In this document: positions 45,032 through 63,281 of the stretch, in pieces
How the letters are laid out: every line of letters starts with the position of its first letter
Position numbering within the stretch: the stretch's first letter is position 1
NCBI RefSeq assembly: GCF_000170755.1
Contig: NZ_ABCK01000003.1
Coordinates: 124,001-188,000 of the forward strand
Reading direction: 5' to 3'
Length of the DNA: 64,000 bases
DNA from: Lentisphaera araneosa HTCC2155
GTDB lineage: Bacteria; Verrucomicrobiota; Lentisphaeria; Lentisphaerales; Lentisphaeraceae
Made by a program: the position numbers and the translations under genes
Notes under the pieces: model-generated
Seen by the model: only the letters and a program-made list of their open reading frames with translations
What the model was told of the DNA's origin: nothing
Database searches by the model: none

Positions 45032-46768
45032 TTACTTAATTATTTGGTGTTTGACATCTTCGAGGTCATTAGCAAATCGTGAGTGAGTTAAAGGGTTGAT
45101 TTTGAATTCCAGCGGGCTTAGAAAAATGAATTCATTAATGTCATCGGTTCCAATTTTACTAATATCGACTTTTTTTAGATCCATTAGCATAAGTGGGCTA
45201 CAGTTATCTAATGGGGACTTACCTTGTATTGAGATGCTATTGTCTTGGATTTCAATTTTTTCTATATAGTTATTGTAGCGATTTAATAATTTAGTTAAAA
45301 GGCTTTTTCGCATGTTCAGACCCATTTCATCTTTGAGAGTGAAACTTAGATTAGACATAGCTAGATATTGCTGGTGACCTTCGAGGAAATCATAGATTTC
45401 TATAAGATTATGAATATTTCTAAGTTCTGATTGTTCACTAATAGATTGAGATAGTTGAGCTATGTGAGTGAATTCCTTGTCCAGTTCGTTGAACTTCCAA
45501 TAAGCCATTTTGAAATTTAGGTTACATAAATGTGTGATGCCACTTAGTTTTAGGAGCTCAGTATTTTGGGGGTGATAAACGAGAGCTTGGTTAAGTAATG
45601 CTTCAGCTTCTTTGGTTTTAAAATTGTAGAGTAGCTTATGGTGCTGAGTGAAGATTTCTTGGAGCTGATTCTCAAAGCTTGGCTGTGGCGAACTCGGTAG
45701 GGAATAGTAAAGCTTTTGACTAAGGTGTGAATTTTGCTTTTTATAGTGGAGAGTGAGAGAAAGAATGATAGCAAAGGCGACGCAATAAAAAATGGTTTTT
45801 AGATTTCTTTTACAAAACAATAGAAATACAGTTCCCTGACCAGCTGCTTGCGATGAGGGCGCAAAACCATTGATCCAGTTCTCTAGGTCTTCTTTCAGTA
45901 AATGGACGGCTTGATAGCGTAATTCAGGATCTTCACGCATGGCTTTATTAATAATAGAGAGGAGGCCACCCGGCGTGTGCTCAGGGTCCTTGTGAAAGTC
46001 TGGGTCAAGAGGACCCCGTAAACTAATAAGGCACTTTAACAAAACTCCCATAGAATAGACGTCACAGCGGGGGCTGGGGTCAAAAACTTTTGATACCTTC
46101 AGTTCTGGAGCAATAAAGCCTGGTGTCCCACAAACAACGCGGTTCTTTTTGAGTTCTTGTTTCGAGTCTAAGTGATGAGCTAAGCCCCAGTCACAAACGA
46201 GAAGTTCACCAAAAGAACCGGTTTGGATGTTTTCAGGTTTTAAATCTAGGTGGATAACATCACGACTGTGCGCATATGAGATAGCATCACAGATTTTGAG
46301 GAACATGTTGATTTTGTTTTTTAAGGCAATTGTAGGTGAGTCAGGTTTTTTTTGACTCTCTCTGCGTATTAAGTCGGCAAGATTTTCACCAGTTAATAAG
46401 GGCATGGTGAAAAACGGTTCCCCTTTATCGTCATGTCCTATATCATATATAGGCATTATATTAGGGTGTTCGAGACGAGCCGTTATGGTTGATTCTCGAG
46501 TAAATTGCTCGAGGTCTTGTTGGCTTCTGATATTCTTCAAAATAGCCATGGCAACTTGGCGACCGCAGAGTTGGTCGTAAGTCTTGTAGATATGCTTCAT
46601 CCCACCACTACTTAAACTTTCTGGGTTTTGATAGCGGCAATCTGGAGAAGAGAAATCTAGATGAGATTCTTTATTGATGTTGTGAGATTGGGATTCATCA
46701 TGTTCTAAAATATCACCCAGTCCTGAGTGCATACTTTCGTATATGTTTAGCGTGTCGTGACGATCCAT
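45032..46768 (-). CDS. Ser/Thr kinase-like membrane protein with relocated lysine (WNK-like arrangement)
   Basis: 578 residues: kinase domain (about 46-310), one membrane helix (about 330-345), and a TPR-like extracytoplasmic or peripheral C-terminus. Three active-site changes stand out. The glycine loop is SSGGMKHIYK with Lys58 in place of the third Gly. The beta-3 motif is VAMAIL with Ala75 in place of the invariant Lys. The catalytic loop is HLDLKPEN (Asp175 kept, Arg lost). DWG (Asp193) replaces DFG and Glu92 is in place. Lys58 sits where eukaryotic WNK kinases carry their catalytic lysine, so activity is possible. Monocistronic; substrate unknown. Confidence 0.9.
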   Translation of the reverse strand: MDRHDTLNIYESMHSGLGDILEHDESQSHNINKESHLDFSSPDCRYQNPESLSSGGMKHIYKTYDQLCGRQVAMAILKNIRSQQDLEQFTRESTITARLEHPNIMPIYDIGHDDKGEPFFTMPLLTGENLADLIRRESQKKPDSPTIALKNKINMFLKICDAISYAHSRDVIHLDLKPENIQTGSFGELLVCDWGLAHHLDSKQELKKNRVVCGTPGFIAPELKVSKVFDPSPRCDVYSMGVLLKCLISLRGPLDPDFHKDPEHTPGGLLSIINKAMREDPELRYQAVHLLKEDLENWINGFAPSSQAAGQGTVFLLFCKRNLKTIFYCVAFAIILSLTLHYKKQNSHLSQKLYYSLPSSPQPSFENQLQEIFTQHHKLLYNFKTKEAEALLNQALVYHPQNTELLKLSGITHLCNLNFKMAYWKFNELDKEFTHIAQLSQSISEQSELRNIHNLIEIYDFLEGHQQYLAMSNLSFTLKDEMGLNMRKSLLTKLLNRYNNYIEKIEIQDNSISIQGKSPLDNCSPLMLMDLKKVDISKIGTDDINEFIFLSPLEFKINPLTHSRFANDLEDVKHQIIK

Positions 46769-46809: not shown

Positions 46810-46843
46810 AAGAGCTTTGAAATTCTTATACTTCAAAGCTCTT
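46810..46843 (-). terminator. Terminator of the symporter operon
   Basis: AAGAGCTTTGAA (46810-46821) pairs with TTCAAAGCTCTT (46832-46843); on the minus strand TTTTTATT follows, 25 bases past the symporter stop. Confidence 0.85.
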
Positions 46844-60174: not shown

Positions 60175-60546
60175 TTAGTTGATTTCGCCTTTGACGCGAA
60201 AATTTTTATTTTGTAAAAATGAAGCCGCTTGTCGGCGTTTATCGCCTTGCAGTTCGAGTGTTTCTTCTTTGACGGTACCTCCACTGCCGATGGTTTTTTT
60301 TAAATCACTGAGCAATGTCATCATTTCAACGAGTTCGAGTACGGGTTCGAAGCCATAAATCACAGTGACTGTTTTTCCAGCACGTCCTTTTTTCTCTAAG
60401 CGGATCTTGCAGGTCGTGTGCTGAATTTTGTTGGTGGTTTTTTTGCTTTCTTCAATATCTTTGGCGACACAGTCAATGTCTAGGCTCGCAAAAGGGTTTA
60501 CGGAAAAGCCTTCAGATTTGAGAGGCTTTTTTTTATTCTTGCCCAT
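60175..60546 (-). CDS. SUI1/YciH-family translation initiation factor
   Basis: 123 residues from ATG 60546; a longer in-frame start would lie inside the pseudokinase gene. The N-terminal ~40 residues are basic or linker-like. The SUI1 (eIF1-like) domain (about 45-123) contains KKGRAGKTVTVIYGFE and LLSDLKKTIGSGGTVKEETLELQGDKR, the classic block. Bacterial YciH proteins can affect start-site fidelity, and the same is inferred. It overlaps the pseudokinase stop by 14 bases and lies 13 bases before prfB. Confidence 0.93.
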   Translation of the reverse strand: MGKNKKKPLKSEGFSVNPFASLDIDCVAKDIEESKKTTNKIQHTTCKIRLEKKGRAGKTVTVIYGFEPVLELVEMMTLLSDLKKTIGSGGTVKEETLELQGDKRRQAASFLQNKNFRVKGEIN

Positions 60547-63235
60547 TGAAAAATACCTTGTAATGATTTGCGAGTCGAGGGTTGAGCTCAGTCGCAATTT
60601 TTAAATAAGCCTTGGCCACGGCATCATTTTTAAACCAGTCCATGAGTAGAGCCGCTTTGAAATAATCTTCAGCAGCAGATTCTTGGAGGTTTTTGGCAAT
60701 AGAATCGGGGCTATCGGGTATTTGGTCGAGTTTTGACTTGGCGACAAACTCTAAAATCTTGGCGAACTGAATATCTTCGAGCTGAGCCACATCAATCTCA
60801 AGGGTAAAGGCTGCGCCTTTACGGCCCATGAGCAGCTGGTCGTTTTTAACTTCTAAAAAGCCATCAATACTTTCTTCAAATTCACGAGAATGAACATCAC
60901 CTTCGTAGGGGGTGCTAGAAAGGATTTTGATGAGGTAGAAACGGATGCGATTGAGTAGCCTCAAGCGCTCATCTTCAATAGCTTTTCTTTGCGAATCAGG
61001 CTGAGAGTTGAGATAATCAATAAATTCTGAGATCGTCGGGCTGAAATCGAGGTTTGATGGGTAGGGGCGCTGGGTTTTATTCACTGGACTGGGAGAAAAG
61101 CTTGCAAAAGCTTCATCGAAGTTCTCACTTACTTCTTGAGAAGAATTATTACTTATTGAAGATGCTTCTGGGGTGAACTCATTTTCTTCAGGTAGAGGTG
61201 TGAATTCTTTAGGGCTCTCAGGGGTAGAAGTTTCTTCTTCAGTAGCCGTTTCAATCGCTGTATTATTTATATTTGAATCATCTACAGGAGCTTCTTCCGG
61301 AGTGGTTTCTTCATTGACTTCAGCATCGCCAGCTTCATTATTTTCGTCGTTTTGAACTTCGCTAACTGCCGCATCTTCAGTTTGGTCTGCGCTATCTTTT
61401 TTCCGCAAAGCAAAGACAGCAATTCCCGCTATGAGAATGAGGACAACAAGTATGGGAATAATGGGAGGGCTTTTCTTTGACTCTTCATTGAGTTCAATTA
61501 ACAAGTCTTCATGAGCAAGGTCCGTGTCTTGGAGTTTGGCGTGTTTGAATTTATCTGTATCTTTTTCGAGTGGTGCTTTAGAGACGGGTGTCTTCATGCG
61601 AGTTGCCGCCATATTTGATTTTTGCGTATTGCGCAATTGATCAAATTCTTTTTCCACTTCTTTCAAGCTTGGGCGGTCACTGGGGCGAACGGTAAGCATT
61701 TTTTGAACGAAGTCACAGAGTTCTTGGGGAGTGTCACTGCGTAGCTCTGAAAGGCTTTTTGGCGTCTCTTCAAGGTGCTTATCCATTAAGGTTTCTTGGG
61801 TGTCTGCTGAATAAGGCAGTTTTCCTGTGACGAGTTGCTGCGCAATAAGTCCAAGGTGGAAAACATCGCCAGCGGACTCGCTGTCTTGGCCTTTGCGAAT
61901 AATCTCTGGTGAAACAAACTCTGTTCCATAGAGAGTCTTATCATCTAAGCTACGCATGATGGAGTAAAAAATATTAAAGTCGGTGACTTTGATTTGCCCA
62001 TCGGAATTAATTAAAATGTTGCGTGGAGTGAGGTGGTGATGGAACTGCTTGTGGCGACTGTATTCAAGTAAGCCTTTACTCACTTCATGGAGTGTTTTTA
62101 GGCAGGCATTGATCGGCAGTGAGCCATTGGCTTTGGCAATAAAGTTTTCCAATGAACGTTGATTCATGAATTGGCTAACCATAAAGAATTGGCCTTCATG
62201 AGTTCCAGAAGTGTAAATCGGAACAATATTTTGCTGTGTGAGAGTCGCACTGAGGCTGAGTTTCTCAATTAAGGTTTTGACAAGCTCTTCATTAGCCGAA
62301 ATTTCTTTACTGAAAATTTTAACACATACTTCGCGGTTGAGAGAGAGATCAAGGGCGCGATAGACGGCAGAAAACTTGCTGTCAGAGAGTTGATCCTCTA
62401 AAAGAAAATGCTGAAAACGCTTAGGAACAATGATAGGCTCAGAGCATTTTTGACAAGGGACTTTTTCAAAAGCTTTTTCTTTGGAGAAATCATTAAGCGC
62501 TCCGCATGAATGACATTTAACTTTGTTAAGTCCATTATTGCTATCTTCACTTTCTTCCTCAGTGCTACTTTCATCCTTAGCCGCTTGCGGCGCTTCTTTA
62601 ACTTCAGCTTCGTTTGCTTCAGCGGTCTCACTTGTTGTGATTGTTTCTTCGCTTGGACTAGAGGTGTCTTCGGTGGGCTTGCTTTCGGGAAGTTTATCTT
62701 GGATAGTCGGGGTAGTATTTACATCGACTTTATCTTTTGTTGTCGCGGCGAGAATTCTTTGTTTCGCAGCAGCAATTTTATCTTCTAGTTCCTGAGATTC
62801 ACTTTTTTCAGGCTTAGGCTCAGGTTTTGTCTCATTGACACCATCTGAATTGGAAGCTAAAACTCTTTGTTTCGCAGCCGCAATTCGACTAGCGATATCA
62901 CTTGCGGATCCAGCCTCTTCATTTTTAGTGGCTTTTGCGGGAGAGGGCTGAGCAGTTTTTTGGCCGGGAAGTTTGATGTCAGTACCAAGTGCTTTTTTAG
63001 CTAAATTTTTGACATCCGTTTTTTCTTCAGTTTTAGGGGGTTCAGGTAAAGACGCTGATTTCTTATTGTAGCCAAGAGTGAGTTTTTCTTCTGGGACTTC
63101 GATTTTGGCATTACAGCCAGGGCAGTAAAATTTTGATCCTATAACAAGGCCAGATACATTGAGCTTGGCATTACATGCCGGGCAGAAAATTTTGCTTCCT
63201 TCAGGTAAAGAAGGTTGGCTTACTTGGTCAGACAT
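60533..63235 (-). CDS. Membrane-anchored pseudokinase with two zinc ribbons
   Basis: 900 residues. A zinc ribbon (Cys18/21/38/41) precedes a long acidic linker with a repeated motif (IAAAKQRVLA at about 118-127, IAAAKQRILA at about 154-163). A second ribbon (Cys241/244/261/264) follows, then a kinase fold (about 275-535), a membrane helix (about 590-610), an acidic stretch and a C-terminal domain. Active-site losses: the glycine loop reads LSDSKFSAVY, the HRD motif is HHHLTPRN (Asp to His401, Lys to Thr403), and DFG is DFN (Asp419 kept). Lys306 is kept. Catalysis is very unlikely, so it is probably a scaffold or sensor. It lies between ileS and the SUI1 gene. Confidence 0.9.
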   Translation of the reverse strand: MSDQVSQPSLPEGSKIFCPACNAKLNVSGLVIGSKFYCPGCNAKIEVPEEKLTLGYNKKSASLPEPPKTEEKTDVKNLAKKALGTDIKLPGQKTAQPSPAKATKNEEAGSASDIASRIAAAKQRVLASNSDGVNETKPEPKPEKSESQELEDKIAAAKQRILAATTKDKVDVNTTPTIQDKLPESKPTEDTSSPSEETITTSETAEANEAEVKEAPQAAKDESSTEEESEDSNNGLNKVKCHSCGALNDFSKEKAFEKVPCQKCSEPIIVPKRFQHFLLEDQLSDSKFSAVYRALDLSLNREVCVKIFSKEISANEELVKTLIEKLSLSATLTQQNIVPIYTSGTHEGQFFMVSQFMNQRSLENFIAKANGSLPINACLKTLHEVSKGLLEYSRHKQFHHHLTPRNILINSDGQIKVTDFNIFYSIMRSLDDKTLYGTEFVSPEIIRKGQDSESAGDVFHLGLIAQQLVTGKLPYSADTQETLMDKHLEETPKSLSELRSDTPQELCDFVQKMLTVRPSDRPSLKEVEKEFDQLRNTQKSNMAATRMKTPVSKAPLEKDTDKFKHAKLQDTDLAHEDLLIELNEESKKSPPIIPILVVLILIAGIAVFALRKKDSADQTEDAAVSEVQNDENNEAGDAEVNEETTPEEAPVDDSNINNTAIETATEEETSTPESPKEFTPLPEENEFTPEASSISNNSSQEVSENFDEAFASFSPSPVNKTQRPYPSNLDFSPTISEFIDYLNSQPDSQRKAIEDERLRLLNRIRFYLIKILSSTPYEGDVHSREFEESIDGFLEVKNDQLLMGRKGAAFTLEIDVAQLEDIQFAKILEFVAKSKLDQIPDSPDSIAKNLQESAAEDYFKAALLMDWFKNDAVAKAYLKIATELNPRLANHYKVFFNGQE

Positions 63236-63281
63236 TAGAACTCCTAAGCTAATAAAAAATAATCAGATAAATTAAACGGAA

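Follow-up and report, generated by a model that had tools for sequence, protein, structure and literature searches.

The protein encoded at positions 45,032 to 46,768 (minus strand) of the window, a stretch of 64,000 nucleotides of the Lentisphaera araneosa HTCC2155 genome, likely belongs to a family of active kinases whose catalytic lysine has been relocated in a manner convergent with eukaryotic WNK kinases, most members of which, in the same genome, would control ECF sigma factors. Kinases of this family, here called K/A, carry a lysine in place of the third nucleotide-loop glycine and an alanine at the beta-3 site; kinases called non-K/K have the beta-3 lysine and no loop lysine. Loss of the beta-3 lysine is a standard mark by which a kinase is called dead. 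In these proteins, to judge from the residues conserved around it, the mark probably denotes a rebuilt, working switch. The window protein would be a bacterial Ser/Thr kinase of the Hanks type and catalytically active; its Lys58, placed at the third-glycine site where strand beta-2 starts, would substitute for the missing beta-3 lysine, hold the ATP phosphates and pair with Glu92.

The protein (P0001) is 578 amino acids long, and matches the Pfam kinase family PF00069 (2e-32; 113 bits against a cut-off of 31.7). The kinase domain, delimited by Pfam and an AlphaFold2 model, spans residues ~45-300 (45,869-46,636; this and the following features lie on the minus strand). A single transmembrane segment is predicted from hydropathy at residues ~322-343 (45,740-45,805), and the C-terminal half of ~235 amino acids (residues ~344-578; 45,035-45,739) is probably extracytoplasmic. 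The modelled kinase domain is a confident kinase fold (pLDDT 93.2, pTM 0.90), and PknA and PknB are the closest solved structures retrieved by Foldseek (best 4e-20). In the model Lys58 (codon at 46,595-46,597), which occupies the position of WNK1 Lys233, is the first residue of beta-2; Ala75 (46,544-46,546), at the usual site of the catalytic lysine (PKA Lys72, WNK1 Cys250), lies within beta-3, and Glu92 (46,493-46,495), the equivalent of PKA Glu91, within the C helix. The first glycine of the nucleotide loop is replaced by Ser53. Further departures concern Leu174 in the catalytic loop L174-D175-LKPE-N180 (46,229-46,249), where HRD becomes HLD, and Trp194 in the metal-binding motif at residues 193-195 (46,184-46,192), where DFG becomes DWG. 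In the alignment to Mycobacterium tuberculosis PknA, whose structure has been solved, ATGGMG is set over SSGGMK and VAVK over VAMA. In the alignment to WNK1 (PDB sequence), which is gapless, K233, C250 and E268 fall on Lys58, Ala75 and Glu92, with a 17-residue spacing in both proteins. A misalignment or frame error behind the Lys58/Ala75 pair is ruled out by the DNA and by these two independent alignments. The placement of the two residues proposed in the earlier note is thus borne out, down to the match with WNK that it suggested checking, and Glu92, Asp175, Asn180 and Asp193, which it had listed as kept, are all present.

In WNK1, an active kinase, Lys233 lies in beta-2, takes over from the usual lysine and is required for catalysis (PMC4718504; PMC1821047); according to one description, no functional eukaryotic-type family other than the WNKs lacks the beta-3 lysine (PMC1821047). 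The exact match of the WNK1 columns, along with the published role of Lys233, suggests that Lys58 may reach ATP in the same way, and the lack of variation among K/A kinases at all the other catalytic positions points to catalysis. The likeness to WNKs includes the lysine at the exact third-glycine position, the loss of the beta-3 lysine, and the retention of the C-helix Glu, the HxD Asp, the Asn and the metal-binding Asp. In contrast, the window kinase has Ala where WNK1 has Cys at beta-3, HLD in place of HRD, DWG in place of DLG, a bacterial transmembrane architecture and other residues at the chloride pocket. No WNK occurs among its 60 best sequence matches or 50 best fold matches, where PknA and PknB of M. 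tuberculosis come first; judging from these matches, the window kinase is not a WNK by descent. Hanks-type receptor kinases, such as PknA, PknB and the PASTA kinases, resemble it in fold, sequence and layout (cytoplasmic kinase, one transmembrane helix, external C-terminal part), but use the beta-3 lysine, HRD and DFG where the window kinase has Ala75, HLD and DWG. CAK-chloro (Kannan et al. 2007), a choline/aminoglycoside-kinase-like family, carries Arg55 and Met72, and its C-helix Glu is changed to Phe91; the window protein is in turn a protein kinase, which in that numbering has Lys55 and Ala72 (Lys58 and Ala75), and keeps Glu92.

Rather than a lone odd kinase, the protein would be one member of a large and probably single-origin K/A clade in the phylum of the window, to which most of the kinases read in its own genome belong. 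The 6.0 Mb genome of L. araneosa hosts 105 kinase-domain matches, 90 of which were read at both lysine sites: 58 (64%) are K/A and 32 non-K/K, and no other combination was encountered. Since the median pairwise identity in this set is only 40%, the K/A state represents deep conservation. Relatives were taken from the matches listed in a scan of the genomes of ~85,000 named species and of genomes of the same phylum. Added to the set from L. araneosa, these give 267 non-redundant domains, 110 being K/A, 156 non-K/K and 1 unreadable. Alanine at the beta-3 site is accompanied by the loop lysine in 110 cases out of 110, and a lysine is found at the loop site in 0 of the 157 other relatives; domains carrying both lysines, or neither, number 0 among the 267. 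Relatives that keep Ala75 but vary at position 58, for which the earlier note had proposed searching, likewise number 0 in the same set. The second loop glycine, the Lys, the Ala, the C-helix Glu (PKA Glu91 equivalent), and the equivalents of the catalytic Asp (Asp166), the Asn (Asn171) and the metal Asp-x-Gly are identical in all 110 K/A kinases. The HxD motif reads HLD in 100 of them, HRD in 7, HFD in 2 and HMD in 1, and DWG is found in 109. Three kinases with the canonical lysine (L119, L149 and L028) carry HLD and DWG, and HLD is therefore not strictly bound to the lysine swap. K/A genomes were not counted by a bit-score threshold, since between 278 and 298 bits the scores of K/A kinases overlap with those of canonical ones. 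One K/A paralog of L. araneosa (L063, G000:C7:244691-245491) has an in-frame stop within the kinase domain.

Kinases read directly as K/A reside in the genus and family of the window and in several further families within its class, and other classes of that GTDB phylum have them too; carriers include Verrucomicrobiota bacterium JB023, Pontiellaceae bacterium B1224 and a Lentisphaeria MAG. Among the matches listed, the best ones outside the phylum, from Planctomycetota, Sorangium, Parachlamydiales and other groups, are of the canonical type, and K/A kinases have so far been seen only within the phylum. Similarity alone, the lysine columns aside, links the protein to plasmids at no more than ~33% identity, and over part of its length only. 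Kinases on viral contigs are canonical apart from two. L344 has lysines at both the third-glycine and the beta-3 site; L293 has a lysine at the third-glycine site, and the beta-3 residue is read, possibly, as Arg. The two are possible look-alikes of an intermediate state. Trees were compared after excluding the trait columns from the alignment. A quick tree left free scatters the K/A kinases (3 changes); the tree in which they are held together is 56.7 log units better, with a p-AU of 0.95. Several independent origins within the phylum are accordingly disfavoured, and on this comparison K/A kinases probably form one clade which arose once, although internal support is low. The perfect covariation would then reflect one change kept by selection, not many repeats, and the independent repeat of the lysine relocation is the one in WNK.

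Orthologs in two congeneric genomes have kinase domains 93% and 90% identical to that of the window. Nonsynonymous divergence in the domain is low (pN 0.048 and 0.066) and synonymous divergence saturated (pS 0.89 and 0.83). The N-terminal 44 residues (64-66% identity) and the C-terminal part (48-50%) are fast-changing. One ortholog (L260 ~2612 to L269 ~1486) is split after residue ~370 by a transposase-bearing insertion, the other (L259, 1067-1543 and 1495-2802) carries a frameshift near residue 434; the kinase and transmembrane parts are intact in both. The kinase half is under strong purifying selection, which shows function, not catalysis, and would also be expected for a useful non-catalytic kinase fold.

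Linkage to ECF sigma genes is a new finding, and distinguishes K/A from other kinases in the same genome. Twenty K/A paralog loci share as a neighbour an ECF sigma-factor gene (TIGR02937, PF04542), which in many cases immediately precedes the gene for the kinase. Within 3 kb, such a gene was found at 50 of the 58 K/A loci of L. araneosa vs 3 of the 32 loci of other kinases (odds ratio 60, Fisher p 3.8e-13), and in turn 55 of the 63 ECF sigma genes of this type in the genome adjoin a kinase. The association is seen in other genomes as well, ECF sigma genes occurring in flanks of ~1.5 kb at 26/52 K/A loci and 5/119 other loci (p 8e-12), with the exception of one branch of the class, whose K/A loci have no sigma neighbour. 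Sulfatase genes are also enriched: in L. araneosa at least 29 of the 58 K/A kinases have one within 10 kb, as against at least 3 of the 32 others (p 8e-5), the counts being lower bounds based on the ~150 sulfatases listed. In most K/A proteins of this genome a single transmembrane helix joins a cytoplasmic kinase to an extracytoplasmic C-terminal part, which in some paralogs is TPR- or LRR-like. Most are encoded next to an ECF sigma gene, often in the vicinity of sulfatase genes, and would probably control that sigma factor in response to an extracellular polysaccharide or a related signal.

Kinase genes similarly adjoin ECF sigma genes in the ECF43 pairs EcfP-PknT and EcfK-PknS, and in planctomycete groups ECF59, 61, 62 and 217. 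Direct phosphorylation of the sigma factor by the kinase has been reported for EcfP (PMC8999054) and EcfK (PMC13147305), and sigma factors may be substrates of K/A kinases too. Yet, the acidic sigma-2.2 motif is absent from ECF43 sigma factors or altered in them, whereas many K/A-linked ones keep acidic residues there, in DxDD- or DxED-type motifs. The mode of activation may thus differ from that of ECF43, which is not simply transferable.

The window kinase itself departs from both ECF43 modules and most of its family, being one of the eight K/A kinases of L. araneosa with no sigma neighbour: the nearest ECF sigma gene is 89.8 kb away, and the nearest among the sulfatases listed 93 kb. This copy either lost its sigma neighbour or never had one. 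The gene directly upstream encodes an SSF sodium:solute symporter (PF00474), and is kept there in a congener. The symporter was discarded as a functional partner, since no SSF symporter gene is present at the 20 K/A paralog loci and a hairpin resembling an intrinsic terminator (46,810-46,843, minus strand) separates the two genes.

It could be argued that K/A proteins are pseudokinases, which at most bind nucleotide and serve as scaffolds or sequester sigma factors, Lys58 only stabilising the loop or the nucleotide. The three-motif definition of a pseudokinase, by which at least one of the VAIK Lys, the HRD Asp and the DFG Asp is missing, does fit the window kinase, which lacks the beta-3 lysine and keeps both Asp residues. 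By this rule K/A kinases count as lacking a motif, most have also lost the HRD arginine, and up to 67% of some bacterial kinomes have been classed as pseudokinases (PMC12599244), a figure near the 64% of K/A kinases found here; we infer that the two sets correspond to the same kinases. The reading is nonetheless unlikely, because 110/110 K/A kinases keep the catalytic Asp, the Asn, the metal Asp, the C-helix Glu and the relocated Lys, whereas non-catalytic pseudokinases commonly lose several catalytic residues. An example is in the window itself. The 909-residue product of 60,536-63,262 (minus strand), in which a zinc-ribbon-like N-terminal part precedes the kinase domain, is a real pseudokinase: loop glycines, C-helix Glu and catalytic Asp are all missing (FHHHLTPRN, DFN). 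That the window kinase is degenerating and heading for loss, the route to inactivity which the earlier note set beside independent lysine relocation in bacteria, would explain the damage to the C-terminal half in both congeners, one of which has a frameshift there and the other a transposase insertion. Decay is very unlikely, however, as the kinase domain is intact and strongly constrained in all three species, is 90-93% identical while synonymous sites are saturated, and shares the K/A state with more than 100 deeply diverged kinases. Relocation is instead strongly favoured by its fixation in 110 divergent proteins which kept the other catalytic residues.

The extension of the earlier note to chloride sensing in a marine organism finds no support. 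In this reading the relocated lysine would open a halide site at the back of the nucleotide-binding pocket, chloride would inhibit the enzyme, and the kinase might act on the adjacent sodium:solute symporter. The chloride pocket of WNK1 is formed by Phe283, Leu295, Leu369 and Leu371. These residues are not matched in the window kinase, in which Ile107, Phe119 and Trp194 align to Phe283, Val296 (beside Leu295) and Leu369; only the DxGL leucine (Leu196) is common to the two, and canonical relatives have it too. The idea draws some appeal from WNK1, whose identically relocated lysine has been tied to halide binding (PMC4718504), and from the retention of the symporter gene in a congener, but the terminator-like hairpin and the lack of such a symporter at the 20 paralog loci speak against it, and chloride sensing is extremely improbable.

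Active kinases with a relocated lysine are thus the preferred reading. If true, a second family, bacterial and with more than 100 sampled members, has made the WNK move, which would then be a repeatable evolutionary solution. The family would offer many natural variants in which to ask which changes a relocated lysine requires in its surroundings (HLD accompanies it in 100/110), and the greater part of the kinases in these bacteria, now filed as pseudokinases, would have to be reclassified as active sensor kinases linked to sigma factors. Chances are about even that a wider scenario holds, in which a WNK-style active site was rebuilt once in one branch, and gave rise to dozens of membrane sensor kinases per genome, each with a dedicated ECF sigma factor for the use of sulfated polysaccharides, and annotated as pseudokinases, as K/A kinases would be. 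No paper on the K/A family was found in the open-access literature; prior notice is possible in subscription papers, which lie outside that search.

Other genes recur near K/A kinases. No sigma factor was seen at eight loci of one family of the class (L185, L188, L189, L196, L197, L233, L235 and L238), where a short K/A kinase (ORFs of ~370-450 amino acids) adjoins a gene for a ClpX-like AAA ATPase. Genes for DUF1559/pseudopilin-like secreted proteins (PF07596) are found at 12 of the 20 K/A loci L350-L369.
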